Shown here piece after piece: positions 4,293 through 62,624 of a DNA stretch of 64,000 bases. The notes beneath the pieces are model-generated. The model saw nothing but the letters and a program-made list of their open reading frames with translations, made no database searches and had not been told where the DNA came from. Position numbers and translations under genes: made by a program. Every line of letters begins with the position of its first letter. The stretch's first letter is position 1. The DNA is from Phaseolus vulgaris (taxonomy: Eukaryota; Streptophyta; Magnoliopsida; Fabales; Fabaceae): the NCBI RefSeq assembly GCF_000499845.2, contig NC_023759.2:19324272-19388271 (forward strand). The letters are read 5' to 3'.

Positions 4293-5339
4293 GTCTCTAA
4301 TAACGTTATATACATTTAGTAACATCAACCTCGCTGATTTGGAAATTTTTAATGGCATGGCACGTGATAATGATAGAAACATATGCATTTAGCATTGCTA
4401 CACATTAATACATGGCATATGCCTATAGTCAGCAACCTTAAAATGCCTTCTCAAATGATTTTCATATTTTTTTACAATTAAAGGAGGATAAGTTTTGTTC
4501 TCCTTTGATTTTAGATAAAACTAAAAATAGAAATAATTATAGATGTCAACTACGGAATTAATATTAAATGATGGAACTGATTGCAAAAACATGTGGTTAC
4601 AAGAATTTCTTTCTATAAAGAATACAAGTTTCTAGCAATAACTATAAACAACAGCATACTTCTTAGTGATCTGCAACAAAAATGCTCCACTCACCAGACT
4701 GATTTCTAGTTTCTTTAGAATGTATTAACTAGCCTGAGACTGAATCTTGGCAATGAATTTCTCCATATCAGGTAACTTCGATAAGAATTTATAGATGGGA
4801 AAAAGGAAGAAAGTATGGTTGTAGAATGCTTTACTACTCAGTGACGTATACAAAAGGTAAATTCTGGATATTTTGATTAAAGGTTTACTGGATAAGATGT
4901 CTAGGTTATCACCATAGATGGCTTCTGAAAGGAATGTTGTTTTATGAGTGCAAGTATTAAAGGTGCCCAGATGACTAGGTTACTAACTGCTTCCTTGTAA
5001 CATATGCCCCTGTCCTGCATAAGGCTTGCAAATTTAGGAGTACAATTTAGATAACTCCAATTCTAAGGTGCCTGTGAGTTGTAACTAACCTCATTGATGT
5101 GGCTGTGATTATACATCTTGAAAGGAAGCACATGTTCACTGGTATCAGCTGATAGTCCCAACTTGTTCAGATGTCCTGTACTGCCATGTCAGTCATGCAA
5201 AACAGTCCTGTTTTGCATTTGCCGTGGTAGGTTTCTGGCCCTTCAACACACTAAATCCATCAAATTTTACATATTTGTGATGTAAACAGTAAGTTGGGTT
5301 TCCAACTTCCATATTGCCAGAATTGACCAGGTATTGGAC
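4293..5339 (-). other. 3' flank and probable 3' UTR of the TRCF-like gene
   Basis: No open frame of note. The part next to the stop codon (roughly 4700-5339) is less AT-rich than the flank, as expected of a transcribed 3' UTR, but no poly(A) site can be fixed from sequence alone. The part below 4700 shows nothing I recognise. Confidence 0.35.
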
Positions 5340-8300
5340 CTAGTACTTAATGAAGGAGGGTAGTGAAGCATGAAGTTCAGCCAGGCATTGAAAGATCCAA
5401 TTAAGAAGTTGTTCTTTTGGTAGCTCTAAAAGAAGTTCAGCCTGCATGAAGAAAATCATTAGGAAAAAGGAACATAAACTTATTACATATGATTCTGGGT
5501 ATGGGGCCTAGGTTATCGGTACAGATAGGAAGTATGCATAATGCAAAAAAAAAAAACTACATTATTAGATACAAATGGCCAGAAAAAAAGAGAAAATACT
5601 GGACACATAACTCTTGATATAAATGGTAAAAAAATGTTGTTGGCTCTTTAAACGAGTATATAGCTAATCTTGTAGCTAAAGGCTTTCATTGACAACCTAG
5701 CTATGATTTTCATTAAATCTTCTCCCCTATCATCAAACCGGAATTCATATTACATTGTCTTTGGCAAATAGTAATCGTTAGCCTCTTGTTTATACTAAAT
5801 GTTAATAATGCTTTTTTAAATGGTGTTTTAGATGAAACATTTTACATGCAACAACCTCCAGATTTTGCATCTTCTGGTCCTTCTTTGGCGTGCAAACAAG
5901 ACAATGCTATCTATGGTTAGAAGCAAGCCCTAAACCCTGTTTATCAATGGCTTGCCAAACAACAAGGAACACTGTTTATCAATGTCAAACTAACACTATT
6001 TATTTGCTAGTTTAAGTTGATGATATAATTATAACAGATAGTTCTTCTACTTTTGTTCAAAGGATTATCAATCAACTTAATTTTGCCTTCCCTCTTTAGG
6101 CAGTTTGGTCACCTTGATTACTTTTTGGAATAAAAGTTAGAACTCTTCAGGGCGGTTCCTTATTCTATAACCCAAAGCAAATATCTTCATGATCTTTTAC
6201 ATGGATCTAATATGTTTGAAGCTAAGTTTATTTCTTCCCTTATGGTCTCTAATTGCAAACTATCAAAAGAGGTTCTGATTTTCCTTTTTGATGAACTTCC
6301 TATAGATCTATTGTAGGTTCTCTTCAGCGTCACTTGAAAATGATTAATCTAAATGAGAGAAGATTTTATTTCAATTGATTAATTTGAAACCATAAATCAT
6401 AATTCTCTATATAGAGAATTCTAAACCTAAAATATTGATTATAAATAGATATCTAAAATCTTCTAACGACTTGTTATAGCTTCTAACAAGACACTTAATA
6501 TCCTACTAACAACACTTCCTCTCAAGTGGATATCTATCATTCCCAACTTGCAGATGAAATCATGATATTGTTCAATGGGAAGGCCTATTGGAAACAATAT
6601 GCTAAATGAAGCCCAAATGGGACATAAGTAGTGATAAGGTCGTTGTCCAATTCCTCTTTAAGAAATTGTTGATCTATCTTTATGTGCTTGGTCTTATCAT
6701 GCTGAACTAGATTGTGAACAATGCTAATAGCTGATTTATTATGACAATAACAAATCATAGACCAATGTTGCCAAGATCGCAAGTTTACTCGCATTCTCGC
6801 ACGAGTCAGCTAGTTTGGAGGGCCAGTCGAGGTGAATCGGCTAACGGATCGGAATTGGAGTAGATCGAGTGAGGTGTCACATGGCTCAGTGGATCGACTG
6901 AGGTTGCCAATCCTAGATCGTGACTCGTGCGCAGCCATTTTTGGCCAAAAAAATGGAGTTTGGTTGCTCCAGTTAAAACCCAAGCGGGGAGAAGATTCGA
7001 TGATCTTGTGCAACGACTTAAATGGTCTTGTGCAGTGGCGGCAGCAGCAACGCACGCTCTGATGAGGCTGTGACGGTGGTAGAAAATGAAGAAATTAAAT
7101 GGGAAGTTGTGTCGTGTGTGGTGCATGAAAATGAAGGAGTTGTTGCCCAAAAATAAACCATAATTTCAGAAAATCTAATTCAAACATGTGGGCCTTGGCC
7201 CATTTTTAATACCCAACCCATTGCAACCCTAATTCAAATTAAGTCATTGGAGAAGTGTTCTGCAATCGCTAGAGGAAGTGAGCAATAATATTAATTTAAA
7301 ACCCTAATTAAACAAGGTTTATTTGGTTCTTACTTGGCCTATTTAAAATATTATAAGTGCCCAATAATTCTAATCCACATCAGACTTCTAATCTTTTCTT
7401 TAAGTTATCTATAAGTATATATTGTAAAATTCTTAGTAACTCTTACGAGTCGAGTTACAATACTCGAGTTACGATCTTTTATCTCTTTCCTGATTCTCTT
7501 ACGATTTACGAGTTTGACAACATTATCATAGACTCTTCATATATCACTTTAAGATCATTTAGAATAATTCTCATCCATAAAAATTGACACACCACATGAG
7601 CCATAGCTCAAAAATTCAGCTCTGCTCTATACCTTACAATAACATTTTGTTTCTTACTTCTCCTAGTCATCAAATTTCCACCCAAGAACATGCAATATCC
7701 TGGGGTGGAGCTCCTATCTGTGACAGACTCTGCATAATCTACATAAGTATACACCTCCTTTTCAATTTTTCATTCCTCTTTAACAATAATCCCCTTCCTG
7801 GACTTGTCTTCAAATATCAAAGGATTATGTTCACAACTTGTAAATGTCTCTCCCTTGGATCATGCATGAAATGACTAACTACACTCACAACATAGGCTAT
7901 GTCAGATCTAGTGTGGGCTAAGTAAATGAGTTTCCCCACAAGTCTTTGATAATGACCTTTATTCATAGAATTGCCCTTCATCAATCCCAATTCTATGGTT
8001 TTGTTCTATAGGAACTTGAGTGGTCTCGCAATCAATCTTACTTGTTTCTTTGAGAAGATCAAGAACATACTTTCTTTGGGAGATAAAGATGTATTTCTTA
8101 GAGTAAGCTACTTCTATCCCAAGGAAGTACTTTAATTTTCCTAGATCCTTCATCTCAAACTGAGCAACAAGCTTTTCTTTCAAGATTTGTTTTCCATGTT
8201 CATCATCTCTTGCAACAATCATATCATCAACATAGACCAAGAGTAATATAAGTTTACCTTCTGGTGAATGCTTAATGAACAGGGTATGTACACCTTTACT

Positions 8301-11300
8301 CTATCGATACCCCATCGAGATCATAACCTGAGTGAGTTTACCAAACCAAGCACAAGGTGACTGCTTAAGTCTATATAAGGCTTTCTTCAACCAACACACT
8401 TTATTCCCTTCTTTAATAGACTGAAAACCTAAAGGAATTTCCATGTAAACTTCTTCCTCTAAAAGTCCATGCAAGAAAGCATTTTTCACATCAGATTGTT
8501 GCAATTCCGAACCAAAATAAGTTGTCAATGATATTCATCTTTGTTATTGGAGCAAATATCTCCTCATAATCAACAACATAAGTCTTGAGTATATCTTTTA
8601 GCAACTAACCTTCCTTTGTAACAGTCTAATGTGCCACCAAATTTATACTTTACATTATAAACTCATCTTCATCCTACTACCTTTTTATTGAGTGTGTGCC
8701 ACCAAATTTATACTTTACATTATAAACTCATCTTCATCCTACTACCTTTTTATTGAGTGGTCTGTCATCAATTTCCTTTGGCTGGTTCTTTTCTAAGGCA
8801 TCCGTCTATTCATTTATGAGTTGAACCCAATTTTCATCCTTTAATACTTCTTGAAATGATGTAGGGACTCTATTTGCATCAATGGCTGAGAGAAAAATCT
8901 GGTGTTGCATATATAGATGTTTAGTGGTCACAAATTGAGAAATAGGGTACTTGGTACAAGACAGAGTTCCTCTTCTCAAAGAAATGGACAGGTCATCAAG
9001 GTCAGGCTCACAATTATTATTCAAGGAATTTTTCAAAAGTTTAAAGGGTGCCAAAAGAAGGAAAAGTTACCCTAGCTTAGATGATTGGAGTTGTTTTTGG
9101 ATCAGTTTAGGTTGCTTTTGTATCCTTTGATATTGTATATAGGAGAAACTCTCTAGATGACTAGTTCCTAGAATTGACCTTAATTTGGGAACAAAGTTGC
9201 CCTTGTTAGGAAGAGCTTCAAAGACATCTGCAGATGTCTCGAGAGAAGTATTAGGAGTACCGAGAGTGGTATCAGCATGATACGGTTCCTATATGATTGG
9301 GACAAAAGATGACTCGAGATTCAGAAGACTTAGCTTCAAAAGTGCTCTCCCCCTAGAGCTGAGGAAGCATGTAAAAGGATGTAATTCCAACTTTCTTTCT
9401 TTTCACTCTCTATATAAAGAGAATCTTTGTTCCTTTGTACTTTTTTATCAATACAAAATTTTCTTTTTTTGTTTCTGTTCTCTCTCTCTTAAATATAATA
9501 TAACAAACCGTTATCAGATACTGCCTTAAATAAGTCTATAAACAGGAAGTAATTGATAGCTTTAACATTAGCTATTCAACATTAGCGACCCAACTTATTA
9601 AGACAAAAAAGTTCAAGATAATTGTTATTAGAGTAGAGGATTATTAAACATAATCAACAAAATTGGTTGGTGAAGCTCTTGGTATACGAATTTGACATTG
9701 TATATAAAATGGGAGCTTCAAATAAGGTGGCAGATGTGTTATCGAGAAAAGAGGAAGATAAAGAGTTGCAGCTTGTATCTAGACCCTATTGGCAGGATGT
9801 TTCAGAAATAGATGCAGAAGCTGATCCTATTTTATCAAAAATTAATGAGCTTAAACAGTATCATAACTTGCATAGTAAATATACCCTAGAACATACTTAT
9901 TCCACTCATTCTATAGTTGATGTTTTCGCAACAACTTGGTACCAGACCCCATTTGTAAACAGCCTCAAACATTTCATCTATTTATTTAAACTTGGTATCA
10001 AAATGGGATTGCTGAAAGGAAAAACCGTCATCTTCTTGAGGTTACTAGAGCTTTACTTTTCTAAACGTCTGTTCCTAGATCTTACTGGGGGAAGCAATCC
10101 TGACTACCACTTATTTGATTAATAGATTACTTTCTCGGGTTCTAAAGGGTGCTACTCCTATTCAGCTTATGACCACATTTTATCCTTCTATTCCCATGTT
10201 GACTAGCTTTCAGAATCATGTCTTAGGTTGTCCTGTTTTTGTCCATGTTCATAGTCCTTATTGGGGTAAGTTAGATACTCGCGCCATCAAATGTGTCTTC
10301 ATCTGTTATGCCCCCAACAAAAAGGGGTACAAATGTTATCACCCTCAAAGTCGTAAAGTCTATGTTTCCAAGGATGTCACACCTTTCATGAAACAGAGTC
10401 TTTCTTTCCTAGTTCTCAACTTCAGGGGGAGAGTATTCAAGAATCTGAGGTTCTTGAGTTGCCACCTTTTCCTTTGTTGTAGGATTCCATTCTTAGGGAG
10501 GATGACAAAGATCCTACACCCACATCATTACCAGAGAAAAATAATGAGGACAAATATTTTGGAAATAATATCAGCAAACGCAACAGGAACCCGTCCTGGT
10601 CGAACAACTTCAATTGTTCGAACCGGAGGTAAGAACTCGTACCCTTGAGACTCTTGAGGACACCTTAAATAATTCTTTTGAACCTAACCTAATGATTTAT
10701 CTATTTCCTAGAGAAAAGAAAAAATATTTTCTACCAAATATCAATTTGTGTCTACATAAAAGTTTTTATGCAACACCGGAGTTTTCTTTCAACTATTGAT
10801 TCTATCAGAATCCCTACATCAGTACAAGAAGCCTTAAAATATGAGAATTGGGTTCGAGCCATGAATGAAGAAATGAGTGCATTAGAAAGTAATGAGACTT
10901 GGGAAATTGTAGAGAGACCAAAAGATAAGAAGGCAGTGGGTTGTAGGTGGATATACACAGTTAAGTATAAGTCTGATAGCACACTGGATCGGTATAAAGC
11001 AAGGTTGGTTGCAAAAGGGTATGCTCAAACCTATGGGATTGATTATGAGGAGACTTTTGCTCCAGTGACAAAAATGAATACAGTTAGGATTATTCTCTCC
11101 CTGGCAGCACACTTTGGTTAGGAGATGCATCAATTTGATGTTAAAAATGCCTTCTTGCATTGAAGCTTGGAGGAAGAAGTATACACGAAGATTCCACCTA
11201 GTTATGATGCTATTGATGAAGAAAATAAGGTGTGCAGACTTAAGAAGGCCCAATATGGTCTTAAACAATCACCTTGTGCTTCGTTTGGAAGGTTTACTCA

Positions 11301-14300
11301 AGCTATGGTATCTTTGGGGTACTGACAAAGACAAGGTGACCATACTCTATTTATAAAACATTCACAAAATTGTAAACTCACTATACTTTTGGTCTACGTA
11401 GATGATATGATTATTATAGGTGATGATGAGATTGAAAAACAAACTTTGAGCGAGACTGGTTGCTTAATTTCAGATGAAGGATCTTTGGAAGCTGAAGTAC
11501 TTCCTTGGGATAGAGGTTGCTTACTATAGACAGGACATCTTTATTTCTCAAAGGAAATACATCTTTGATATCCTCAAAGAGACTGGTAAGTTGGATTGCA
11601 AGACCACCGAAGTGCCAATAGAGCAAAATCATAGGATTGAGAATGATGAGGAAAATCCAAAGGTGGAGAAGACACAATATCAAAGACTGTGGGAAAACTC
11701 ATTTATCTATCACACACTAGGCCAAACATAGCTTATGCAGTTAGTGTGGTTAGTCAATTCATGCATGATTCAAGAGAAAGACACTTGCAAGCAGTAAATA
11801 GAATTATTCAGTACTTAAAAGCCTCTCCAGGGAAAGGATTGCTATTCAAAAAAGGGGAAAACTTATCCATGAAAGTATATATTGATGCTGACTATGCAAG
11901 GTCAATTGTTGATAGGAGATCCACCACAGGCTATTGTACGTTCCTGGGTGGAAATCTGGTGACATGGAGGAGCAAGAAACAAAATGTAGTTGCAAGATCA
12001 AGTGCAGAAGCAAAATTTAAAGCCATGGCTCAAGGGGTTTGTGAACTATTATGGATGAAGATCATACTCGATAACCTCAAAATAAAATATGAATCTCCTA
12101 TGGGTTTGGTGTGAAATAATAAGTTTGTCATCCGTATTGCACACAATCCAATTCAACATGACCGAACAAAGCACGTAGAGATAGACCGAGATTTCATTAA
12201 GGAGAAGTTGGATAATGGTCTTATAGCCACCGAGTACATTCCTTCAAGACTCCAATTGGCAGATATGTTTACTAAGGGACTTCCCACAAAACACTTCAAA
12301 GATCTTACTTGCAAGTTAGGAATGATAGATATACATTCACCAACTTGAGGGGGAGTGTTGAATAATTAGGAGATAATTATTCCGTAATTAAGTGCAATGT
12401 TCATTCTCTATTTATTAGGACAGATTTGATATCTTTTAGTCATTTGATTTGATTTGTATAGCTTTAATTACCTATTATTTCTTTCCTTAATTACGTTGTA
12501 AACAATCTATAAATTGAGACTGTAATCACATTTGTAAATACATCAGGATTACATTTCATCTATTTCTTTCAACTTGTCTTCAATTTCTTATTCTATTTTT
12601 TATTCTTATTTCTTGTTTTTATATTCTCACCTACTTCTGAACTATATTCAGTCATCATGTTCTTAATTTTTCCTTATGTTGTTTTGTGTTCCTTTTCTTG
12701 TTCTTATCTCATATACGTTATTGTGTTGATGGAATCCTTGATTCAAGCCTCTCATGGATTCAATTCATGACTTAAGACAAGGATGAGATTCTAATTGTTA
12801 TCTAGTCTTCTCACTATTATGTTGTTTAAGCTTCCAATGCTTATATGTACTCTATCAAACTGTTAACTCAAGAAGGCCCCCATACATCACTGAATTTATG
12901 AAAATGGGTATGATGTTTTATATATCTGGATAGAATAATAAGATTTAGTGGCTAACTGACCCACGATTGAACAAATTGGATTTTTTATTGAAAAAAAGGG
13001 GAACAACTTTTCCATGTAAGCAAAATTAGGGTGTCCTAGGCGATAGAGCCTTAATATTACATCATCTTTGGAAGAAATGACATGGGCAGTCTTGATGCTA
13101 AAACAATATAAGCAAAGAGCCTGTTTGGATACAAGCTAAAAGCACTTTTAAGAGTTTCTTAATTCAAAATATAGAGCTTTGTCTAGTATAGGAGCTCTCA
13201 AAAAGCTCTTCTAGCTTTGTATCCAAAGAGACTGAAAATGAAGCATAAACGAACTTCCTGTCCAAATGCATTAATTTCAGACCAAAAGAAAATTATGCTT
13301 CGTGATTCTATACAAATTGAATGGAATTTTATGCATAAAAATATCTATCAATAAAATGACCAAATTAATTATATACTATTACATATTTCATGTGTAAAAT
13401 AAGGCAAAAAAATGAACAAAATACAAAGGCAGATCTCAAGAGATGTCAAAATTCATCAATATAAAGAATTCAGAGATAAAGAAATTCTTTGGAATACCTT
13501 AATTTGGTCCCCCTCAAGAACCAACGACTTTCTATGTAAATCTGATGCCATGGACTCTGTCATCAGCTTGAATACCTTTTTACTCATGTTTGTTTTCATG
13601 AAGATCATCTTCCCTAAAGAGTAGATTCTGCTTATCCCTAAATCAGCCGCCATTCTCCTCATGTAAAGCTTCTTTAGTAAAATCTCCATGGAGCGAGGCT
13701 CTTTGCCATATTGGCGGCGCAAATTCTCTGTAAATTGCATCAGACTCCAGATGTCTTTCTCGGCAACTCTCTCAGCATCACTTAAAATTTTCATAGGGTT
13801 CTCCAGATAATTAATGTAGTCAGAAGGGAGATGAGGATTTATGTTCATGTCAACCTAAATAATAATAAAGTAGAAAATGCATCAACCACAAAATCTCTAC
13901 TATATGCATTTATACAGATGCCAGATACACATTATACCTACATAAGTACAAAGACACTAGAAATGAAGAGAACACCAGGAAGAATATTATCAGGACCATT
14001 TCGGTGTAGGCTTTGAACGGTTTGTATTCACAATTCAATGTTAATTTGGCTATTTTCTATTCACATGTATAGTTGAATAAAGTGTATACCTAGAGTGAGA
14101 TACTATTTATTTGATGGAATATTCTATTGAGTGCCCAAAGGCACGCTGTTGAAGTAGTAAATATTTAAATGTGCCTATTAAATGTTTTAAATTACTAAAA
14201 GTATACATAAAATGACTTTGGCAAATGATTTTGGCGTTTTTAATAAAATAAATACTTTATTTTCCAATAAAACATTTTTACCTCATTCCATAGACAACCC

Positions 14301-20300: not shown

Positions 20301-23300
20301 AGCTTTCTTTTCTAGGTAGTGTTATTGTTTACCACCAACATTTTTCGATGAGTAATATTCACCACTTATGTTTTTTCGACAAGTACTATTTATTGTCGAC
20401 ATTTTTTAAGAGTATTGTTTAACACCGATATTTCTTTAATAAGTATTGTTCAATGTTTTTAGGCAACATCAACGTTTTTAGAGCGAGTCCTTTTTTTCCT
20501 ACAAGCTTTTTAAGCTAGTTACCATCACTGTTGCTGCCTTGCTATGTGATTTCTCTTTGACAATTGCAAAACCCTCTCAGCATTTTTTGCTTCCTAGTAG
20601 TCACCACACTCTCTAAACAATTTACCTTTCCGACAACTATCGTGTCCTTTGAGCATTTTTGCTTCTTCAAAGCCATCATGATTTCTAAGCATTGTTGCTG
20701 TCCAACAGTTGTTGTGTCCTCTGAGCATTTTTGCTTTCCAGCAACTGTCATTTCCTTTGAGAATTTTTTCTTCCAGCAATTGCCATGACCTGTAATAATT
20801 CTTTTTCCAGCAACTGCTACTTTCTTTAAACATTTTTTTTTTTTGGCAGTCAATGTGTCATCTACCCATATCTGCCCTCTGACCATTTTTAACAAGTTTA
20901 TCTTATAGATATGCTCCATCTTGAGGGGAAGGTTTAGAGATATGACTTGATCACATTAATAGGGAGATAGGATGTGATTTTATAGAGAAATATCCCCATC
21001 AAATCATATCATATATCTAACACTCCCACTCATAGGTTGGAGCATATGTATCATATGAGACAAGCTTGTTACAAATTTTATAAATACAACACCTGTTGAG
21101 AGACTTAGTAAACATGTCAGTCAGAATGTTGCAGAAGCTAACAAAATACATAATGATATTCCTAGGACTTTCTTACTGTCAAAGTGACCATGAATCTTCA
21201 ATGTTTCGTCCTTTCAAATCATATATCTAACATTTAATATCAAATAGATTGAAAAGGCTCCTGCCTGCAGAACTCTAAAGGATTGTTTCAATAATTTAAG
21301 GACAGTAGCAATATCTCTCGAATTATCTCATAAATGTAAATGCTTAGTGAATACGAGAATATATAGTATAGATGTAGATTGTATTGTAGGTCGTACCAAT
21401 GCCTGGAGTGGAAAGAAGTGGAAAGAAATAGATGAAATATATTTTTGAGATATCTTACAAATTTGATTACAGTCTTTATTTATAGACTGTTTTACAACCT
21501 AATTAAGGAAAGAAATAATAGGTAATGAAAGCTATAAATAATGGGTGTTTAAAGCTTTACAAATCAAATCAAATCAAATCAAATCACTAACAAATCTGTT
21601 CTAATAAATATAAAATGGAATCTGCACTTAATTATAGCATAATTCTCCTGATTATGCAACACTCCCCCTCAAGTTGGTGAATGTATATCTATCATTCCCA
21701 ACTTGCAAGTAAGATCCTCGAATTGTTTTGTGGGAAGTCCATTAGTAAACATATCTGCCAATTGGAGTCTTGAAGGGATGTACTCAGTGACTATAAGACC
21801 ATCATCCAACTTCTCTTTAATAAAGTGTCGATCTATCTTGAACCGGATTGTGTGCAATACTGATAGCGGACTTATTATCACACGCCAAGCCCATAGGAGC
21901 ATCATATTTTATTTTTAGGTCATCAAGTATGATCTTCATCCATAAGAGTTCACACACCCCTTGAGTCATGGCTCTAAATTCTGCCTCTGCACTTGATCTT
22001 GCAACTACATTTTGCTTCTTGCTCCTCCATGTCACTAGATTTCCACCCAAGAACATGCAGTAGCCTGTGGTGGATCTCCTATCAACAATCGATCTTGCAT
22101 AGTCAGCATCAGTATATACTTTAATGGATAAGTTTTCCCCCTTCTTGAATAGCAATCATTTTCCTGGAGAGGCTTTTAAGTACTGAATAATTTTATCTAC
22201 AGCCTGCAAGTGTCTTTCTCTTGGATCATGCATAAATTGGCTAATCACACTAACTGCATAAACTATGTCTGGCCTAGCGTGTGATAGATAAATGAGTTTT
22301 CCCACAAGTCTTTGATATTGTGTCTTCTCCACTTTTGGGTTTTCCTCATCATTCCCAATCCTATGATTTTGCTCTCTTGGCACTCCAGTGGGCTTACAAC
22401 CCAACTTACCAGTCTCTTTGAGAAGATCAAGGATGTATTTCCTTTGAGAAATAAAGATGTCATGTCTCGAGTAAGCAACCTCTATCCCAAGGAAGTACTT
22501 CAGCTTCCCAAGATCCTTCATTTCAAATTGAGCAGCTAGTCTCTCCCTCAAATTTTGTTTTTCAATCTCATCATCACCTGTAATAATCATATCATCTACA
22601 TAGACCAAAAGTAGAGTGAGTTTACCATTCTGAGAATGTTTTATAAACAGAGTATGGTCACCTTGGCTTTGTCGGTACCCCAAAGATACCATAGCTTGAG
22701 TAAACCTTCCAAACCAAGCACGAGGTGATTGTTTAAGACCATATAGGGTCTTCTTAAGTTTGCACGCCTTATTCCCTTCATTAACAACACCATAACCAGG
22801 TGGAATCTCCATGTATACTTCTTCCTCTAAGCTTCCATGCAAGAAGGCATTTTTAACATCAAATTGATGCATTTCCCAACCAAAGTGTGCTGCCAGGGAG
22901 AGAATAATCCTGACTGTATTCATTTTTGCCACTGGAGCAAAAGTCTCTTCATAATCGATCCCATAGGTTTGAGTGTACCCTTTTGCAACCAACCTTGTTT
23001 TATACCGATCTAGTGTGCCATCAAACTTATACTTAACTGTGTATATCCACCTACAACCCACTACTTTCTTATCTTTTGGTCTCTCTACAATCTCCCAAGT
23101 CTCATTCCTCTCTAATGTGCTCATTTCTTCATTCATGGTTCGAATCCAGTTCTCATCTTTTAAGGCTTCTTGTACCGATGTAGGGATTCTGATAGAATCA
23201 ATAGCTGAAAGAAAACTCTGGTGCTGCATAGAAAGTTTTTCTGTAGACACAAATTGGGATATAAGATATTTGGCACAAGATCTTTTTTCTTTTCTTAAGG

Positions 23301-26300
23301 CAATAGGTAAATCATCTAGGTTAGTTTCATTTAAGGTGTCCTCAAAAGTCTCATAGGTATGAGTTCTTACCTCCAGTTCGGACAATTGAAGTTGTTGTTC
23401 GATCAGGACGGGTTCTTGTTGCCTTCGTTGATATTGTTTCCCAAAGTATTTGTCCTCATTATTCTTCTCTGGTAATGATGCTGGCATAGGGTCTATGTCA
23501 TTCTCTGTAAGAACGAAATCCTGCAACAAAGGAAAAGGTGGCAACTCAAGGTCCTCAGCTTCTTGAATACTCTCCCCCTGAAGCTGAGAACTGGGAAAGA
23601 AAGACCCTGTTTCATGGAAGGTGACATCTTTGGAAATATAAACTTTACGACTTTGAGGATGATAACATTTGTACCCCTTTTTGTTGGGGGCATAACCAAT
23701 GAAGACACATTTGATGGCGCGAGAATCTAACTTACCCCGATAAGGACTATGAACATGGACAAAAGCAGGACAACCAAAGACACGATTCTGAAGACTATTC
23801 AACATGGCAATAGAAGGATAGAATGTGGTCATAACCTGAATAGGAGGAACACCCTCTAGAACCCGAGAGGGTAATCTATTAATCAAATAAGTGGCAGTCA
23901 GGATTGTTTCCCCCAGTAAGATCTAGGAACAGATGTTTGGAAAAGTAAAGCTCGAGTAACCTCAAGGAGATGACGATTTTTCCTTTCAGCAACCCCATTT
24001 TGTTGAAGAGTGTCCACACAGGTTAATTCATGAACAACTTCATTTTCCTCAAGGAACTTGGAAAGGTTTTGGTTCACATATTCTCTTCCATTATCAGAAC
24101 GCAATCTCTTAATTGGACTTTCAAATTGTGTTTGAATCATTCTGTAAAACTTTACAAACAAGTGAAAAACTTCAAACTTATCTTTCATGAGGAATATCCA
24201 AGTAACCCGAGTACAATCATCAATAAATGAAACAAACCATTTTGCACCCGAGATATTAGGAATAGGTGAAGGTCCCCATACATCTGAATGAATAAGATCA
24301 AAAGGTTTAAAACTTTTATTACCATTGGGAGGAAAAGTTGTCCGATGGTGTTTAGCAAACTAACAAACATCACAATGAAATGACTCAGTAGACACTTTTG
24401 TAAATAAAACAGGAAATAAGGACTTTAGGGTACTAAATGGAGGATGACCAAGACGTTTGTGTTGAAGCCATATCTGAGAGGATGACCAAGATTCACGACC
24501 TTGCTGAAGATTAGAAGTGTGTGCCTGTAGTCTAGCACACTTTTTACTTTCTTCATGTTGTAAATAATATAACCCGCCCTGCTCTTTAGCAATTCAAATA
24601 GTCTTCCCCGTGGCAAGATCCCGAAAAACACAATGGGAAGGAAAAAATACCACTGCACAATTTAAATCTTGGGTAATCTTTTGAATAGACAAGAGGTTAT
24701 TGGATAGTTTGGAAACATGAAGCACATTTTTTAAAGGAAATGAAGGTTGAAGGTGAATGTTACCACGACCATTAATGGGGGTAGTGGAACCATTAGCAAC
24801 AGTAATATATGGGTTACCGGATAAAGCAGTGTAGGATGAAAAAGAAGAGGAAAGAGGTGTCATGTGATCAGTAGCACCAGAGTCTATAATCCAGATATTT
24901 TCAGTACTAAAAGCATTAAATGATAAAAAACTAGAACTCTTACCACTCATAGTAAAGGAACAATAGCTAGATGGCTTACTAAGGGAGTCCATGAGAGCTC
25001 AACACAACTGAGTCTTTCAGATTGGCAAAATTTGATCATGTTCACAAAAAAAATCCGCTGGAAAATTTTTCCGGTGGCAGTTTCCGGCGGCCGGCGGCAG
25101 CTTCCGGCGAGTAGTGGCAGTTCCGGCGAGCGGTGCAGTTTCCGGTGAGCGACGGCGGTGGTGGTCGGTGGTGGTGGTCGGCGACGGTCAATGGTGGTGG
25201 CAGTAACGGTCAATGATGGAAGGTGGTGGCAGTAACGGTCAATGATGCAAGGTGGTGGTGGTGGTCAATGGAGAAAAGATAAGGAAAATAGAAAGTTGCA
25301 GCAATGAAGGCTGTCCAAAAAAAAATTGCAGCAGTGAAGGCTGCCAAGGAAAATGATTACAGCAATGAAGGCTGCTAAAAAAAAATTGCAGAAGCAGAGT
25401 CTCCCAGATCAGGAGCTCTGATACCAAGTGGAAAGAAGTGGAAAGAAATAGATGAAATATATTTCTGAGATATCTTCCAAATGTGATTACAGTTTCTATT
25501 TAATAGACTGTTTTACAACCTAATTAAGGAAAGAAATAATAGGTAATGAAAGCTAGAAATAATGGGTGTTTAAAACTGTAGAAATCAAATAAAATCAAAT
25601 CACTAACAAATATGTTCTAATAAATATAAAATGGAATCTGCACTTAATTATAGCATAATTCTCCTGATTATGCAACACCACCTGGAAACAGCAGGGAAGA
25701 CAAAGATCTCTTCATAGAACTCCTTCCTTTAAATTAATATAAATTAGGACAAAATCTCTAACTTTTCAACTAATCTAGTATCTCTTTTCAATGTGAGTAT
25801 ATTGTTGAGGCATTGCCGGAAAAATGCTTTAAAAAGCTAAAAGCAATACTATTTTCAGAAAAAAATAAAAATCTAAAAAACTATTATTTTGGAATGGAAA
25901 GAGTATCAAAATACAAAATAACTGCCATTTTTTATAATTGCCTATTCACCAACACACTGAGCTACAGAGTAAACGTATTCATCCAAAACTAACAATCTTC
26001 ACGCCTTAGCAAACTAACATTCTTCATGCAATAGACCCTTAAACAGGGTGTAAGTGTTAACTACCTTCCCATGGGCAATGGCTATTTCCACATTCGGGAA
26101 TGACTCTACAAGAAATGTCATTACTTCATCCAGTCCTGTAACACAACAATTATTAAGAAACCAGATTCAGTGCTGTAATAGACATCAGACATATTAGCAT
26201 ATATACATTAACAGCAACACCATGATAATCTCTTTTTAGGACTGTGATGGCCATGTAATACTACAATACTTTTTCTGACAGGGGCAACACCAAATGTGCA

Positions 26301-29300
26301 CTAAACGTATTTGCAATAATGAGACCTTAGTTCAACTTGTTTCTATCATCTATGTATTACTGATATATTAGCAGGCTTCTCAGGAACTGAAATAGCAAGT
26401 TTTCTGGATGCACATTCCTCTGACAAAATGACCAGCATAGTTCATTCTACAGTTGTTTCTTATAAATTCTAATGTCTAAAATGATTTCAAGAGTATGTAA
26501 GCAAGTGTAGAATTAGAGTGTGTTTGATTAACAGAAGCTGGCATAAGTAACTACAGCTGGCAGAGACTAATCTATTGCTTACAACAGAAACTTACTTAAA
26601 CACTTAAGCTAATATACAATCACATAAACTCTATTAGGGTGTTTTTTGGCTTATCTTGTGTTGATTTATCTTCATTAATACAATGAGCTCGCCACCTTGT
26701 TTTCACTTTATTTTTTCTTTACAATAATTCTCACAAATGGTGAAAATAAGATTTTGTTATGTTCACTACCTGCTTTTGCAAATTCCCCAAAAAAACAGAA
26801 ATAAATAATAAACTAATCAAGGTAGCTAGATATTATAAAGCTACACTTCAGCAATTTTCCAATAAATTGTCTAGTGCTACACAAGTATTCTGATCATCAG
26901 CAATTTATGGTATCACAGGACACTCTTTGTCAGAATGCCTACAAATATGTTGAAGATAATGTCAGAATCTCTAGGAATATGCTCAAGATAATATTCCCCT
27001 GCAAAGAATTAATTAAATTTCATCACTATGAAGGATAGGATATTTCCTTGTACATATTTAATTATATTTCATAATTAATAGGCTGGTTGAACATTTTGTT
27101 TTTATTGTACAGGATCGCTGATGGTGAATTATAGGGATAGATTGTTTCTATCATAATTTAGGAGTTTACTTAATTAGATTCTTTGTATTCTATTCAAGAG
27201 CAATTGCTCTTCTATAGAAATAATCAGAACAATCAGAGCTACAAAATCCTTGGGAACCTGTGTAATCATCAGTGCATACTGCATTGGTGCAAATTCCTCT
27301 CTTTCTTATGTTGTATTCCTTCTAGTCTAGGCCTGCATTGCCAAACTTTAAACCTCCAAATGTCCAATACACAAAAAAGCCTTAACCAATCAAACAATTT
27401 GGGTAGGTTGAACTGCAGAATATTCAACTGACGTTATGATTCAACGGGAAAAATTACATAAAATGATCTCATTTTGTCCAAACCTTTCTAAAAGGGAAGG
27501 GCAAAGAAAATCATCTCATTGACAACACTCAGAAATTTTCAGATCCCAAATTTGCAACATGGGACAAGACAGATGTGGTGGTAATGTCATGGTTGTGGAA
27601 TGTCATGACACCCGAAGTGAGTGATGCTTACATGTTTATGAAGACAGCTATGGAGGCATGGGATAGCTCTAAAGCAAACTACTCCAAGGTTGGTGATGCT
27701 GCCCAAATCTGATAGTGATTACAATGGATGTAATTTCAGTGAATGTGTTCGACTATAGAAAAGACTGGCACTCGGAGGTGAATCAACGTGTTGGTTACCC
27801 AATCAACCTTGGGATTTACTTGAAAGACAAAAGCGTAGAATTTTCTATTTTGGTAGATAGAGTTGTGGGGGGCTCAGCATCATAGATGGACAATTGGAAC
27901 TAATGATTCATAGGAGGTTACTTGAGGATGATTCCAAAGGTGTTGTCGAGGCACTGAATGAAACAGTTTGCATTCATAATAAGTGCACATGGTTAATTGT
28001 GCTAGGAAAAATACTATTTAAGAATTGAACCTCTAGGAGAGGGTGCTAGATGGCGTCGATCATTTGATCAGGAGATATACTCACCCTTACTTTTAGCCTG
28101 CGACCAATTTCCAGTATTCAACCTTGAGGACAAGTTTGGCAGGGGTGAGTAATGATAGAAATGGGAATAATGAGAGGGTGTAGAAATTTTATTATAGAAG
28201 GAAATTTAAAAATTAGTTAGTTGTTAGCTGTTAACAGAATTGCTGGAAGGGGGCTTTCTTTTAGGAAATCTATATATTCTTTTCTTAAGGGTTGATGAAA
28301 AAGGAGGATTGTTGTTTTCTAACAGAGAATGTCCTGTGTGAAAGGAAGTATTTTCATTTGTAAACGTTGGTTTGGAAGTTTTCTGAGAAATAATACAGTT
28401 TTGAAGGACTGCCCCCACTATTTCTTTTCTGCGTTTTACCTTCTTTGTGAAGGTTCCTAACTGCACCTCTCCTTTAAAATGTTTTAATATTTCTTTCCCT
28501 TAAATATTAATCAGTTAGTCATTTCTTTAGGTGTAAAGTGACAAAAAGTGATCCTAAAACTCTGGGAGGCAGGTAAACTATTAAAGAAAGGAAAGTAACA
28601 GTGGGATTGCAGCTGGCCAGATGACAATCTATATTTATTAAGGTTACTTTACCGCACTCTACCTTCCAAGTTCCAACTCATGAATGTTCCACTTCCTTTC
28701 CATAAAAATCTTTATTTGTCACAAGCTCACAGCAAATTGAGATCAGGGATTACAACGACAGGGCTTGCCTATAGTGCAGCATACTTAACCTATTTCGGTT
28801 CCCTGGTGAGTCACACAACATACAACAGGGAAAAACCATGTATATTTTCAGAGTAAGCTTTTCTGGAAGGTTTTAGAAAAACCAGCAGCCGATCTATCCT
28901 TAAGATTAGGGTACCTTTACTTTACGTTTAAGAACAAAAAAAAGGTCCTTATTATTCAAAGCTGTTACAGATAGTTTTTTTAAGCATGTTTAGACGAAAG
29001 CATGTGCAATGTAATAAACAGAACAGACGTTGTTGTATGGCCCTAAAAAGGGTTTGAAAATATGTTTGTAGGTTAAAGAAGTATGCTATGAATCATTTTA
29101 TGAAATAGTATCGTCAATCATTTTTTCCTTTTCTCCTCTAACAGTTTTTCTTTTCTTTTCCTCTTATATCATTTTGGTGCATTAATCAGTTTTATCTGTT
29201 CAAAACATTCTTCTTTTTTCATCACAAATGAAAACCCTATCCACAGAACACTCAAAAATAATCAGCCATTAGAGTAAAATGAACAACAGCTTTTCCTGTC

Positions 29301-32300
29301 AAACTAAAAGTCATTGCATAAGGTAATGATAGGTCTTATTTTCAGACTTGGACAATACATAAGCTTACACACAGATGTCTGTATAGAAATTAGTAGCTGA
29401 GAATCACCTTTAATACGTGGCAGAACATAAAAAAGTTGACCACCACGATCAAGCTCATACTTGATGGCTGACGTTACTTTGTCCTCACTGAATGAAGAAA
29501 GGTGAGTCTTTATAGGAACTCTTTCTGGAGGTGGTGTTGATATTAAACTGAAACAGAGATTAATAGAAATCATGTCTAGCATTATACTTAAGCTCAGAGG
29601 TTTGATTAGTCCTGATTTCAATAGGAAGAGCCAAACATGCAACAAATGAAGTTCCCATCTAAGTGCCTAACAAAGTACAATGCTCAAAACTAGAACCAGA
29701 AGATTAAGGGGGTAAAAAATGTTAAGACCAATTTTACTGTTACGCACATTTAGGAACTGTTTCCCGTTCTGCCCTCGTCTTGCCATGGTGAAAGAATAAG
29801 GAGCAGAACAGAGAAGCAAAAGGAATGGCCAGAGCTCCTAAAAGCTCTGATACCATATTAAAAATAAAGAAAATAAATATAAGATTAATATCCCTTGTGT
29901 AAAATATAGACATAGGGTTGTTTATTTATAGATGGAAATAATAACAAAATAACAGAAACTATGGGCTAAGCCCATTACATTCAACCATGTTTAAGTTAAT
30001 TTTTCATTTTTTCTACTGAATTGATGAACCAACTCGCTGATAACTAAGATAGTTGCATTGCATATTTATTCCTTTCACTCTATATTTTTCTTATTTAACA
30101 TTACAGATATCCTGTTATACACAATTTTAGGAGGAAAAGCAGTTGGGGACAGAGGGAATAACTTAGCCTTCAAATATAAGAGATATTAGAGTGATACATT
30201 ATCCCTTTTCTATACATATATTGTGACTTAGCCTCCTTTTTTTTCTAGTTTTTAGAATAAAATACATCCTCAGCGTGGGCAGCATAGGCAGCTTAAAAGA
30301 GTTATCAAAAAAACAACTCTCAAAAGTTTAAGTTATCAAGGAAGCATTAGTCATCAGATGAAGGCTTGTGAATGGTTTTATACTTAGTGGCTAATTCACA
30401 AGCAACTCTACCTTGGGCTAAAATTTAACTTCTCATTTAGAACAATGTGGGCAGGTTGAATCAAACTCATAATCATTTGGTGGTCATAGAGGCTTTAATA
30501 CTGTGTCAGAACTAACTCTTCCAAAAGCCTAACCAATCAGGTTAGGCTAATGAATGGTTTAATTTAATATCTAATGAACCAAATCTCAACTTAAACAAAC
30601 TTCTAGTAAAGAAACTTAAACATATGCTAATGTACCGTAATTTGGAAAATCAATTATATCATAATTCACTGTAGTACCCTCACTACATCTCGTGGACCCA
30701 CTCACAGACACAGACATCGATAAAACATGCACCACTCTACATCCTTTTTCAGCAACCAGATATTTTAGAATTTTTTTCCAACAATGTGCAAGACAGGTTC
30801 AGCACAAGATTCTGTTCAATACCAAGTTAATCAAACACAATGAATCTTCCTTCATAATTTGAAGAAAGACTAGTTACCGTACCTGGCATCACGAAACCCT
30901 GTTAATGCTAAATAAAGAGTTCGTGGTATAGGGGTTGCGGATAAAGTAAGTACATCCACAGAAGTTTTAAAAGAAGCAATCTTCTCCTTCTGTTTGACAC
31001 CAAACCTCTGCAAGCAATAAATTGTAGCCCAGTAAGGAAGGAGGGGGGAGTGCCATTCTAATTAAAAAAAATAAAATATGAATTCCAGATAATTGGTAAA
31101 CCTGCTCCTCATCAACCACAAGCAGACCAAGATTGTTATATGTAACACGATCTCCTAGGAGTGAATGAGTTCCAACTATAATATCCAGGCTACCATTCTT
31201 AATCATGTCCAAATTCTCTTCTTTCTCAGCTTTGGTCTGCAAGTTGAGGCAGGTGACATAATCTAAAACTGATAGAACTTGTAAGTTATTCATAAATATC
31301 CACCTAGAAGACCATGTTACTATAAATATCCACCTAGCTCATATTTGTTTGACCTATAATTTTCCAAATTTCAAGTTCCTACAACGTCCATGTGCTTCCA
31401 TTTTATAAGAAAAGTTTGTAGGATGAAAAAGGAGGAGCAACACATCCAGTTTCTTTTGAATAATATAATACTATGTAGTATTGAATTTATTATGCTGGCA
31501 AATAAGGGCAATAATACATAACCATAGAATCATTGTCACTTTCACCACTGCAAATCATAGAGAAGTTTCGGATTGATCAACAGATTAAGCATACGATAGC
31601 CTTCATAAACAGCATGATAAAATGCATTTGCCAATTCAGGAGAAAGAAACCTAGATGGATCATCGCATAAAAATAATGTAGGTGAGGGACAAAATAGATA
31701 CATCAAGCAAAATAAAGTGACATACTTCATATATCTATGAATAATAAGAGGATAACTGCAATAACTCTCTAATATAGACATTAGTTCATAATTAAAAAAA
31801 AAAGGATAGAAATGTACACCAAAACACCAACAACAATTAGAGGTGTAAATGATTTATGATTGCTGACTAACTAATTTAAGTATATATTTAGTCCATGCAC
31901 AAGAAATTAAACTAATCATTCTAATAGTAAAATAGTATCACAGTCATAGGGACAAAATAGTTTGCATATGCAATAAGGTACAAATAGATAAAGCCAGACA
32001 CTACCAAGGTGATGTTCTGGATAGGGTATTTCACACAAGGTAGATACTAAAAGGCTGTCACGTTTATCCAATAAATAGCAATTGTGTCTTTAGCGCCAGG
32101 AAATGTTACAATACTCATAAACTTGCATTTATTAAGCTCAGGGCATGGTTATAATCTATGGGATAGTTCAAATATTCTGATGCTGATTCAAGTGGATTAT
32201 CATATCATTAGAGAGCATTTCTTAACAATATACTATTATTTGACTATCAAAGAAGTTTAATTGGATTGGATTAGTGAAAATTCTATTTTGTACTGTGCAA

Positions 32301-48244: not shown

Positions 48245-51200
48245 CTACACATAATATATCATTCCAACTTCGATAAGACTGATGTGAGGAATGTTAAGAG
48301 CTACAGCTGGACCCCTGCAATTCTTCCGTAGAAATGAGTAGCCAATATCAATCACTAGTTTTTTCAAGAATGAGGATGATTTCCTTGCCTTCACATACGA
48401 GTGCCCCATGATATATGCAACCCCAGCATCCTTGGCTTGAATTAAATCTAAAAGCTCTTCCTTGACATCAGGATTCATGCCAGGATTTTCTGGTAGCTGA
48501 AATCTTACTCGTCGCCTTCTAACTTGTGGGCTTTCATCATCATAAACCGATTGCAAACTTCTTAGGGTTAGAGATCTGCTGCTAGGGATGGATATGTCCA
48601 CGCCAATATCCTCATGCTCTGAAACTATTAAACTTGAAGCATATTCTAAGTTTCTCGAACTTATAACAGCCATCCTCCCATCAAGTGAAGAAGAAGCTTC
48701 AGAACTTGAAAACTGGGGTTCCATTGCTTCCATTTGGATAAATTCTGCTATACTCTGTATAAGATGATTCTCAAAATCTCCATCATCCCTTTGAATGTCC
48801 TTGTAACCGTATCTGACGATGCACCTATACATTCGATATGGTCTGGGGCAAACTCGCCCGATAAGGAAACGTTCTTCAGGTGAAACATACGGAACAGGAA
48901 CTGATTTTACGCAAACAAAAACCAACACCCTGTGAAATGCAGGAAGATTTGTTACAAAATGGGAAAATATAGCAGGTATTCCGGTAGCTAGTTCAGTGTA
49001 GATGAGACCAATCCCTGGGACGCGAACAATGCCAAGGCTCGGGCCCAAGCCCAGTAACCATTTCAATGAAACTTTGTTGTGCAGATCATAGCTGTACTTC
49101 CGACGAGTTCCATAATGCCACACGTACATAATAGCCATGAAGATGAATGATAACACAAGAGGAACCCATCCTCCCTGAGGCACTTTGATGAATGCTGCTG
49201 ATAGATATACTCCCTCTATCATCCAAAAGAATAAAAGAAATGCTATAGCAATGAACACACTTTTCTGCCAGACAAAGATTGCGACTAGTGTCATCAGAAA
49301 TGTAGTTACGAACATAACTGTCATACAAGCAAGTCCTGTAAACCAAATACCCAAAAACAATTAATATATGACAAATAAAACACAAGTTCTGATGAAAGTG
49401 AACAAAATCTGAATTTGAACAAGCATGAAATACATGACCGAAGTAGAACACACGATCCCGTGAATACTAAGGACATGGAATGCTATCTTTCGGTGTACTT
49501 GACATGAGGGTAGTATCTATCCGTTAAGATATTCTATATTGAAAAAGATTTTTTATTTCCTCGAGTGTTTTCACAACCACCACAACTGTGCATATGAAAC
49601 ATCTATTTTGGCTTTTATGCTCGGTTTGTTTTCAGGTATGAGGAGGGAGGGGTGCATCTTCTGTTTGTTTCAGTGGTTTTGAGAGTGAGGGAGTGGATGG
49701 GGGAGAGCATGAGTGTTTTGTCACTCAGAAAAAATTTGTGCTGATTCATGTAGGATTATTGCATTTTACCTAAATACTCTTGTACATGCATTTTATTATA
49801 ATATACCATATACAAAATTAAATATTACATAAATTTATTTCAATTTAATACAAAAATATTTTCTATAATATTTTTAAATTTTTTATTGAAAAATACAAGT
49901 AATTATGGATATTATATATTAGAAAAATTTAATTAATTCAAACCTACAAAAAAAAAATATATCATAATTCAAATATTTATTAATATAAATTTGTAAACCA
50001 TTTTACATCTTTAAAATAATTTCTAAAATTCTCTCCCAACTATCACATCACTCACAAATTTCAATAAACCATCTTCACAAATCTACTTTATCATCCCTCA
50101 ATCCAAACAACCTCACATATCCTCTCTAATCTTCACAAATCCCCTCCTCAATACTATCAATTCAATTTCATAATTGGGGGGAATAATTGCACTTAAGCAC
50201 TGTACAACCAATTGACACCAGAGTGTTTCCAACGATGACAATTTTGATATACGATTAGTATTGAAAAGAAATACAGAGTAACGAGTAAACGGCCTTGTGT
50301 GGGAATAAATTACCATATGCATTTCCAATTATGGTCGTGTCCTGAAATCCAATGGTTATAGCAAGCGTTAAGATCATAAGTATCCAATTGATTTCCGGGA
50401 TATAGATCTGTCCATATATATGTTTTGAGGTGTGCACAACTTTAACTCGGGGAAAGCAACCAAGTGCATGACACTGCTTGATGATTGAGAAAGTTGCAGT
50501 TATAACAGCTTGACTCCCAACAATTGCAGCAAGGGTGGCAATAACAAAAACAGGCCAAAACACAGGTTCTGCAGGACAACCAAATTCATTAATAAATTGT
50601 ATTAATTTAAAAGCACTGTTGTTAATATCAATAAGTCAGCGTGCTAGTTCAACTAACCAGGTATTGAGTCATAAAAACTGTTCTCAATAGAGTTGAGGTT
50701 TTTAGACAAGAAAGCAGCTTGGCCCATGTACTGTACTACCAAACATGGGTATATAACAAAAGCAAATGCAAGCTGCACAAGGAAATAAATACTTAGAAGA
50801 AATTTCTCACTTGTACACCAAAAAATTTCCATGACAAATTACCAGTATAGCAAATGTACACTAAGTAATTATTCTTTCCTGAAAAACAGTATCAATTATA
50901 AAACTAAGATCAATTTGATGTTGAAATTGAAATTGTAGTGAAAAGAGAAATAACACTGGGCAATTGTGTGGTGCTGTCTGTAATAATGTGACGGTACAAA
51001 ACACTAACTAAATATTCCTGACTGTGTATTACAACCAAAACAAGCTCAGTCAAACCATACTAACATATTCTGACACCAAAAACAAAAGTAAATCCTAATA
51101 TTCTGTGACAGATTCTTGAAATTCAGTCAAACTACAAGCTTACCCTTATTGACGAAGCAGTGAAATGACCAAGATCTGCATACATAGCTTCAGTTCCTGG

Positions 51201-53050
51201 AGACGGGGGAACAGAATAAGCTGAGCCGTTAGTGAACTCTAGCATCTAAATTCTAAAAGTCTCAGCGACTAGTAAATTAAAAGCTTAAATAAATTTGTAA
51301 AGTTGGAACAGAAGTATGGAATAACCAGCATAACATCACAATAAATTTATATTGGAGTTAAGATAACTGTTCTGTAGATCAAGAACTACCATACCAGTGA
51401 TACAGAGAAGTATCCCTCCAAGAGAAACCCAACCTTCTTTTCCAGTCTTGCTAAAAAACTTTATGATATAATATGGTGATATAGCACGGACTATTTGTGG
51501 ATTCCAATGGATTGTATTATACAGCCCAACAGAAAATATTGATACAAGCCAGATGATAACAATTGGAGCAAACATAAATGCTACTTTGTGGGTGCCACAA
51601 TGTTGGAGAGCAAACAGTCCAACTAATATGACACAGGCAAGCAGGACAAGTTCACCTGCAAACAACATGAAACTTCTTTTAATATACTATTTATTTATGC
51701 CCTTAACATTAGAAAGGCAATGATAAGAACAGAAAAAAAAAAAGAACAAAATGAGATTTTCCTAACCATCTGTTAATTTTTTTTCTGTAACTTTTAATCC
51801 TGATACCGATGCTAGAACTGCAGAGGAAGAATCAGGGGTTAGCTTGTTCAAATCTTCGGGTAACTAAACAAATAAAACGACTTGTGCACTCACAAACCAA
51901 GGGCAAATTGTACCAAAGCATTATACTAATAAAAATTAATAACACAGGTGCCTTACCCGAAATTGCTGGAGTAAGCACACCATCACCAACGACCATGCAA
52001 GCACCAAACAGTACCACAAGAAGCAGGGCTGTTCTTAACCTTTTATGTTTCTCTAGAAACCTCTTCAATGGAGAAGAGGCTGCAGCCTGTGAAGAGGGGC
52101 CATATTTATAGGATGATAACTCCTCATCAGCTGCTTGTTGATTGGGGAGTAAATTAAACTTGGCATGTCTGCAGAGCAGTGAATAAAGAGCAAATGTTCC
52201 ACCTGATGACAGATGCATCATACTCAGATCACACTCACACGGCTCATAACCTTTCCACAAGAAAAAAAAATGTAAAAACAGAAAATAGAGTCATCAGCAG
52301 AATACCTTCCCCGTTGTCATCAGCACTCAATAAGATGAATACATATTTAAGCAACGGAATCAGGGTAAGGGTCCAAAAAATCAACGAAAAAGTGCCAAAT
52401 ATTGTTTCTTCATCATGGTGATCAAGTAACTTTCCCCTGAAAGCGCTCGTAAACACATAGAGAGGTGAAGTGCTCAGATCCCCGTACACCACACCAAAGC
52501 TTTGATATGCTAATATTAGATTCCGAGAGAGATTCACCCAGGACAACTGCAAAACACCAAATAAATAATTCAAATATTGAACACTTCATAATTCAAGTAA
52601 GCAGAAAACTCGGAAAACGAACCAGTAACCTATATCATCGAAAAACACTGCATGCCAGAATAAAACAAAGAAGAAATCAATTCAATAAAAAGACCTATTA
52701 AACCAAAACTGTTAAAAAGAAAAACAAATGAACTCGAGTTTGACACCAAAATCAACAAACACTTCAAAACTATATCAATTAAACACGTAAACGAATTGCT
52801 AAAGCTACGAAACAGAAGAATATAAACACGCTTATGCAGCAAAGACAGATAGTGATCGAATTGAAATCAATTAAAACTGAAGCAAAACAAGGAGAGTGGA
52901 ATTCCGGTAGCAGTGCGCAAGAACTTCACACTCTATTTAAAATTGGCTAGTTTCTGATAAATCGAAAACACTGCTCCAGCGAGTCACGGAAAAAAGAACC
53001 CTAACCGGAGAAGGATTCCGAGAAGTCGAAGTTCCGGATTCCGGTTCCAT
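48245..53050 (-). CDS. KUP4: KUP/HAK/KT potassium transporter, KUP4/TRH1-like (9 exons)
   Basis: Coding exons on the minus strand: 53050-53006, 52546-52306, 52202-51957, 51817-51767, 51655-51395, 51196-51144, 50772-50658, 50568-50314, 49335-48245. All borders are GT..AG with matching phases, giving 785 codons. The start [15 protein letters not shown] runs into [23 protein letters not shown]. The family signature [15 protein letters not shown] and about 12 hydrophobic membrane segments are present. A long cytosolic tail ends in [13 protein letters not shown]. Known relatives take up K+ at the plasma membrane; Arabidopsis KUP4 (TRH1, POT3) affects root-hair growth and auxin distribution. The tail and [15 protein letters not shown] to [12 protein letters not shown] region match that subgroup best. 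The family is certain; the exact orthologue is a judgement from memory. The frame appears intact. Confidence 0.94.
49622..50113. mobile_element. MITE-like insertion in KUP4 intron 8
   Basis: The left end reads GGTTTGTTTTCAGGTATGAGG and the complement of the right end reads GGTTGTTTGGATTGAGGGATG. The complement interior (AGTAGATTTGTGAAGATGG, AATTTGTGAGTGATGTGATAG) resembles the element at 45950-46626, so both belong to one family. Target duplication unclear. Confidence 0.45.
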
Positions 53051-56655: not shown

Positions 56656-57190
56656 GAACTTAACCAAGTGGTTAAGTAAGTGTGAAGGTGCACTTCATAA
56701 GGAAAAAGAAAAAAACACAAGTATATGGTGTGGATGATGCAATAAGGGCGGAAACTAACATAAACAAAGATGAAGATGACAAGATATGGAACGAACATAA
56801 AAGATATAAGAAGCGTAAAGAGGAAGTAAATAGGAATAAAAGGAAAAGATGAAGAGATAGAGAAAGCTTATGAAGAAAGGATGATGTCACGCCACTTGGA
56901 GCAGAGGGACTTCAAGATGAGTGATGCAAGAGCCACCACTTTAGATATTACCCACTCAAGATAAAACCCAGATAACTAGAGTCGTCGCTTGAGATATTAA
57001 CCACCCAAGATAAAACCCAACGCGAGCTGACAAGTCTCACAAAATCAATCCTACATTGTTTCCTTACTATTCAAATTCAAGTTGAAAATACATGAGGCAA
57101 GACACCCTATTTATAGGAAGGGGTGCCTTGGCGGGCAAGATGGGAGAAGGGTAGAAATGGCAAGGGAGAGGGACTGCCTAGGGTGTTGAC
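56656..57190 (-). repeat. Family A gypsy LTR, outer part (minus strand)
   Basis: Shares CTCATCTTGAAG, CCAAGTGGCGTGA and TTAACCACTTGGTTAAG blocks (in complement) with the LTR at 1686-2580. The segment 57007-57190 is repeated at 62801-62984. It contains a CCTATAAATAG TATA box in complement (about 57108-57118). It is separated from the rest of its LTR by element E1. Confidence 0.6.
57007..57190. repeat. 184-bp direct repeat flanking E1, left copy
   Basis: 57007-57190 (from AAGATAAAACCCAACGCGAG to GGTGTTGAC) matches 62801-62984 in the same orientation, at about 95% by eye and with no length difference. Both are family A LTR sequence, immediately outside E1. Confidence 0.92.
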
Positions 57191-58890: not shown

Positions 58891-58893
58891 CGC

Positions 58894-60241: not shown

Positions 60242-60265
60242 GTTCTCAACCGACTCCTGTCGTCT

Positions 60266-61184: not shown

Positions 61185-61187
61185 GGC

Positions 61188-62618: not shown

Positions 62619-62624
62619 AATGTT

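Follow-up and report, generated by a model that had tools for sequence, protein, structure and literature searches.

A fragment of a host alpha-mannosidase gene lies among retroelement remnants in the 64,000-nucleotide stretch of Phaseolus vulgaris DNA analysed here (the window), and the history that we consider probable, with good confidence, is that a gypsy element captured spliced mannosidase sequence and that the window copy was later fused by deletion to a copia remnant. The capture itself is of a kind already known in plants, like those of maize Bs1 and the soybean gene-carrying TRIMs. The mosaic occupies 26960–28462 on the forward strand and reads, from left to right, copia LTR with U3, leader, gag start, mannosidase, gypsy pol tail and gypsy LTR; the copia-like left flank and gypsy-like right flank described in the initial annotation were thus both borne out. 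Relatives were sought in the 537.7 Mb assembly (467 contigs), and all copy counts given below are lower bounds.

Two reading-frame pieces of the window matched jack bean alpha-mannosidase in phmmer searches of PDB sequences (residues 721–768, E = 2.1e-10; residues 765–813, E = 1.3e-8), and Pfam GH38C gave weak matches below its curated cut-off (E = 5.3e-4 and 0.012). Compared with an alpha-mannosidase gene on contig C9 (locus L010), the fragment matched exon by exon at 84–93% DNA identity. Four introns with GT..AG borders (101, 91, 90 and 433 bp) interrupt the C9 gene in the matching span, and its exons, when joined by us, formed an open frame of 164 codons. Because all four of these parent introns are missing from the window copy, 27712–28099 (+), 388 bp of the GH38 C-terminal region delimited by PDB phmmer and genome comparison, can be read with confidence as a partial, spliced copy of a GH38 alpha-mannosidase gene; the C9 gene of the same genome is its likely donor, to judge from the alignment. 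A second copy, on contig C8, lacks both parent introns of its shorter span. The intronless GH38 C-terminal piece reported initially therefore did not vanish on alignment; its proposed limits of 27717–28110 were shifted to those given above, and its reading as one open frame had to be given up, since the alignment to the parent contains three frame-changing indels (one of 2 nt and two of 1 nt).

Searching the genome with 27690–28160 as DNA gave nine matches: the window itself, C8 (contiguous, 87%), four exon-sized matches on C9, one at another locus on C1, and two covering the gypsy tail only. A protein search with the 164-residue parent stretch at E up to 1 gave 30 matches (C8, 1; window, 2, overlapping; C9, 5; C1 at 13.00–13.07 Mb, 10; C2, 5; C3, 5; C4, 1; C5, 1), of which C8, the window and C4 alone were contiguous over several parent exons. 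At C4 the identity is 34% and the match lies inside a 911-residue open frame, perhaps a distant GH38 gene; the close intronless copies among the matches listed are two, window and C8. Window and parent differ at 42/392 sites, C8 and parent at 27/270, and window and C8 at 28/266. Of the 266 sites comparable in all three sequences, 8 have a base shared by window and C8 but not by the parent, 12 differ in the window alone and 12 in C8 alone, and at 4 all three differ. By codon position, the window differences are distributed as 12/132, 18/130 and 12/130, and those of C8 as 11, 10 and 6; the window copy shows no sign of coding constraint. The C8 mannosidase copy has one TGA, and an intact GH38 coding frame was not found in the window, where 388 bp of the C-terminal region is all that is present. 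Both copies are broken and unable to encode mannosidase; no function needs to be supposed.

To the right of the mannosidase, the last codons of Ty3/gypsy pol and the pre-LTR stretch lie at 28100–28152 (+; ..QFP-FNLEDK.., identified from gypsy relatives), the pol tail being in frame with the mannosidase directly before it. They are followed by a gypsy 3' LTR (TGATAGAAA..CCTAAC, 28153 to ~28462, +) defined by genome matches and alignment, with near-full-length matches at 6 other places among the matches listed (78–85% identity). The CCTTGAGGACAAG pre-LTR motif and the LTR-like sequence beyond it, pointed out in the initial annotation, accordingly correspond to this pol end and this LTR. At C8 (locus L009), the order is LTR (4406–4711), gypsy leader and gag start, mannosidase, pol tail and LTR (5178–5492), making an element of 1,087 bp that keeps the gypsy gag and pol ends and of which the LTRs (~306 and 315 bp) account for over half. 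The right junction, where mannosidase passes into the gypsy pol end (TTTTAGCCT joined to GCGACCAATTTCC), is identical in the window and C8. Since the C8 copy lies inside a two-LTR gypsy mini-element sharing this junction, the passenger belongs to the gypsy element, and the recurrence of the joint there means that the capture is real, as had been proposed when the gene fragment was described as carried by an LTR element. Its placement at the pol position is loosely right, since it stands in C8 in place of almost the whole of gag-pol. The mannosidase of the window copy extends 113 bp further to the left than that of C8, so their common ancestor had at least that much; the C8 mannosidase would have been shortened later, at an overlap of ~5 nt (AGAYA).

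The leader of C8 is common to L034, L035 and L041; by eye, L034 and L035 continue past it into gypsy gag-like sequence, and the similarity of L041 to C8 ends only some 30 nt beyond the leader. At L013, a related locus, domains of Ty3 capsid, gag, protease, reverse transcriptase and RNase H were identified together with the zinc-binding and SH3-like domains of integrase; an integrase core match is just under the cut-off, and the locus ends in the same ..QFP-FNLEDK.. motif. The two LTRs of C8 differ at 30/299 sites (K = 0.110). At 1.3e-8 substitutions per site per year, this divergence corresponds to about 4 million years, slower rates giving older ages. LTR distances from the window are 0.143 and 0.169 to C8 (3' and 5' LTR, respectively), 0.131 to L035 and 0.149 to L034, the latter two being without mannosidase in the ~1.5 kb compared; these distances fail to group the window with C8 over copies without mannosidase, which counts against our favoured reading. 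A clean 5 bp target site duplication (TSD) was not recognised at C8, where LTR ends and flanks are mutated; the gypsy copy in the window lacks a 5' LTR. The C8 flanks (L009 4376–4405 and 5491–5524) are alike over ~21 nt, longer than the 5 bp that LTR elements usually duplicate, at a score matched by 33 of up to 5000 random pairs; the favoured reading does not account for this likeness, which speaks against it. Among the gypsy LTR copies, L036 and L038 on C3 (~609 kb apart, on opposite strands) differ at 5/294 sites, with the same tandem repeat (~150 bp) close by; they are perhaps a segmental duplication.

The left part of the mosaic begins with a copia-family 5' LTR including U3 (26960–27233, +, starting TGTCAGAATC), assigned from genome matches and by alignment to L026 and L028 and to the LTR pairs of L029 and L031; the alignment with these pairs shows that the LTR in the window is present from its first bases. 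Its right edge is an estimate from relatives, and, owing to two tandem copies of a 32 bp unit at 26928–26992, 26928 is a possible alternative to 26960 as its start; the copia remnant recognised initially is real, whereas its start at 26948 gives way to one of these. The 5' untranslated leader (27234–27359, +, by alignment) has a damaged primer-binding site, and several copia relatives carry a TGGTATCA.. block at the leader position. An N-terminal gag fragment with a broken frame follows (27360–27710, +), its ATG being set by eye against the soybean gag P0027. The copia gag already noted at this place is upheld by a Retrotran_gag_2 match that is itself below the cut-off (E = 0.014) and is backed by genomic relatives and plant gag proteins. 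Searching the genome with 26900–27720 gave 50 listed matches (40 of 41 first-look candidates scored), of which five long copia matches with 69–73% identity end at query 809–811, corresponding to window ~27710, the joint with mannosidase; a shorter copia match on C10 has 87% identity across its final 149 bp, and on C6 a weak match (66%) extends to query 813.

Where the window has copia gag, C8 carries the gypsy leader and gag start. Among the matches listed in the copia, mannosidase and gypsy-LTR genome searches, copia next to mannosidase was not found at a second locus, and, the window aside, no listed copia match lay within 10 kb of a gypsy-LTR match, the nearest pair being ~36 kb apart on C1 (by eye). 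A search for further copies with the same flanks thus recovered the right, gypsy joint at C8 but, among the matches listed, not the copia left flank. Beyond the gypsy LTR, six copia relatives match only short and weak stretches at 29834–29900, and the lost copia part seems to have left no clear trace to the right of that LTR. The copia part looks unrelated to the gypsy-mannosidase element, and its assignment to the same element as the mannosidase was not sustained.

One sequence from another source carries the same copia-mannosidase joint: P0013, a 103-residue reading frame on a 1,226 bp contig, spans it in one open frame with 97% identity over 72% of the query, its first residues past the joint being in a frame other than that of mannosidase. 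It is the only one of 14 matched proteins seen to span the joint; P0013, P0027, P0030 and P0035 were read, and the remaining 10 of 14 cover 42–58% of the query, at most the gag part as judged by coverage. From its near identity, P0013 is probably the same locus in another accession, and its carrying the joint argues against an assembly error.

These observations lead us to favour the following course of events. Reverse transcription of a Ty3/gypsy element would have left the element's RNA close to the 3' end of pol and continued on a spliced alpha-mannosidase mRNA, by which a mannosidase cDNA fragment was gained ahead of the gypsy pol tail. The defective element would then have gone through at least one further round of copying, presumably in trans, giving rise to the C8 and window copies. 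The window gypsy copy would have lost its entire 5' part and been joined to a copia LTR-gag remnant that lay next to it in the same direction, most likely by a post-insertion deletion at a TCT overlap. The overlap at the copia/mannosidase joint is TCT with one extra base; such microhomology at the joints is also compatible with switching at the RNA level, which counts against this reading.

A template switch between copia and gypsy, the origin suggested in the initial annotation, would mean that copia and gypsy-mannosidase RNAs were copied together, that reverse transcriptase passed from one superfamily to the other, and that one chimeric cDNA integrated as a unit. All three parts lie on one strand, the filler at the TCT overlap is a single base, and the fusion recurs on the P0013 contig, which agrees with such a switch; however, that contig is best read as the same locus, as argued above. 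Copia genomic RNA has no U3 at its 5' end, so a switch onto it would not copy the 5' U3, the exception being a transcript begun upstream of the LTR. The window LTR does contain U3. In addition, the outer LTRs of the mosaic are of different families (left copia, right gypsy), a TSD flanking the mosaic was not recognised, and the joint has no second copy among the assembly matches listed. A joint formed after insertion is favoured because of these features, and the superfamily switch appears unlikely. According to the part of PMC1950507 available, template-switch complexes are expected to show identical outer LTRs and TSDs, 2 of 20 complexes recognised in ~7 Mb of Triticeae sequence were ascribed to template switching, and such complexes form a minor share compared with post-insertional recombination. 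The mosaic was accordingly rejected as a complex of that type, and it would be better explained by a deletion that joined what remained of a copia element to a 5'-truncated gypsy copy than by a copia/gypsy template switch.

A stronger version, in which reverse transcription itself united the copia LTR-gag, the mannosidase and the gypsy tail, and these form, in some accessions, a chimeric gene with one open frame (P0013) under the copia LTR, is in our judgement highly unlikely. Very improbable, too, is a plain processed pseudogene, that is, a LINE-type retrocopy into or beside which LTR elements inserted later. The copy is spliced and truncated, and the likeness of the C8 flanks over ~21 nt would suit it; on the other hand, mannosidase and pol meet at the same base and the same codon in window and C8, the C8 copy lies between two LTRs, and independent insertions are unlikely to repeat one joint. 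Capture of unrelated fragments by a DNA transposon (Helitron or Pack-MULE), elements that do join several same-strand fragments, is scarcely credible. The introns are cleanly gone, whereas Pack-MULEs hold exons and introns (available part of PMC4717578), LTRs bound the C8 copy, and a search of 24000–32000 for inverted and direct repeats gave nothing convincing, the inverted repeats being short and imperfect (16–36 nt, 72–94%).

The favoured fusion of the gypsy copy to copia would have taken place inside an intron of an Mfd/TRCF-like gene. An exon frame of this gene upstream of the intron (29304–29666, −) matched Mfd structures in phmmer (E = 1.1e-7, residues 39–86 of 120); the next exon frame (26014–26166, −) has no PDB match alone, but when we joined it to the first, the product aligned to Mfd over 64/64 residues (E = 3.6e-8). 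Because both flanking frames belong to the Mfd-like gene, ~26170–29300 is taken as intronic, and the mosaic is placed by these frames in an intron, antisense to the gene. The Mfd-like protein is, we assume from kinship, plastid-located. The gene seems to extend over ~20 kb (13456–34006, −), swollen by transposable elements, and the frame at 13456–13854 looks by eye like the C-terminal part, though it has no PDB match. A copia element at 21407–25678 (−), with LTRs at 21407–21662 and 25427–25678 that are 93% identical, appears to lie within a further intron, and has a relative at 9999–12575 (87.6% identical). No second copy of 25901–29700 was found in the whole window, only a small palindrome at 27188–27219, and tRNA and Rfam scans of the window gave nothing. 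Elsewhere, 48245–52585 (−) contains exons resembling a HAK/KUP potassium transporter gene, and 57000–63000, with ~50% G+C against 27–37% elsewhere in the window, contains gypsy-like gag-pol frames (both by eye).

Among known systems, maize Bs1 is likewise an LTR element with host gene fragments (plasma-membrane ATPase and other exons), exons only, as described in the available part of PMC4717578; here the host exons without introns lie inside the LTR-flanked C8 element. Bs1 carries pieces of three host genes according to the part of PMC13317346 at hand, as against one here. In further distinction from Bs1, two copies with the same junction were found (window and C8), consistent with movement after capture, no open chimeric frame runs across C8, and the window copy is also fused to copia. 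Soybean TRIMs such as GmaRetroS15, from a related legume, are short LTR elements (1,172–1,449 bp) with spliced exon fragments, and in the same part of PMC4717578 the gene-carrying ones all have 5 bp TSDs, whereas none was recognised for C8. Compared with TRIMs, C8 has a recognisable gypsy gag start and pol end, and looks like an internal-deletion derivative. The Triticeae LTR complexes, as far as the available text of PMC1950507 goes, are similar in having two elements fused head to tail, and the window complex, which is without the identical outer LTRs and TSDs of the template-switch type, fits their recombinant class. An earlier report of an alpha-mannosidase fragment in an LTR retrotransposon was not found in the literature searched: in the common bean transposable element paper PMC4093653, gene capture gave one match, unrelated, and 'mannosidase' is absent from the main text of PMC3726574. 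In protein P0025 of Arachis hypogaea, part of a PP1 phosphatase is fused to an apparent single alpha-mannosidase exon, and P0026 has a similar end; to judge from their sequences, these look like a further chimera of gene fragments that involves this gene, in another legume.

A joint between families made in reverse transcription would matter more, if true, but the evidence points the opposite way, and the locus serves as a caution that mixed copia/gypsy remnants do not necessarily imply template switching. What it offers is a clean and roughly datable legume case, in which the likely donor, a two-LTR carrier and a decayed copy are found in one genome, so that the capture junctions can be read directly, and it adds a gypsy example beside Bs1 and the soybean TRIM cases.
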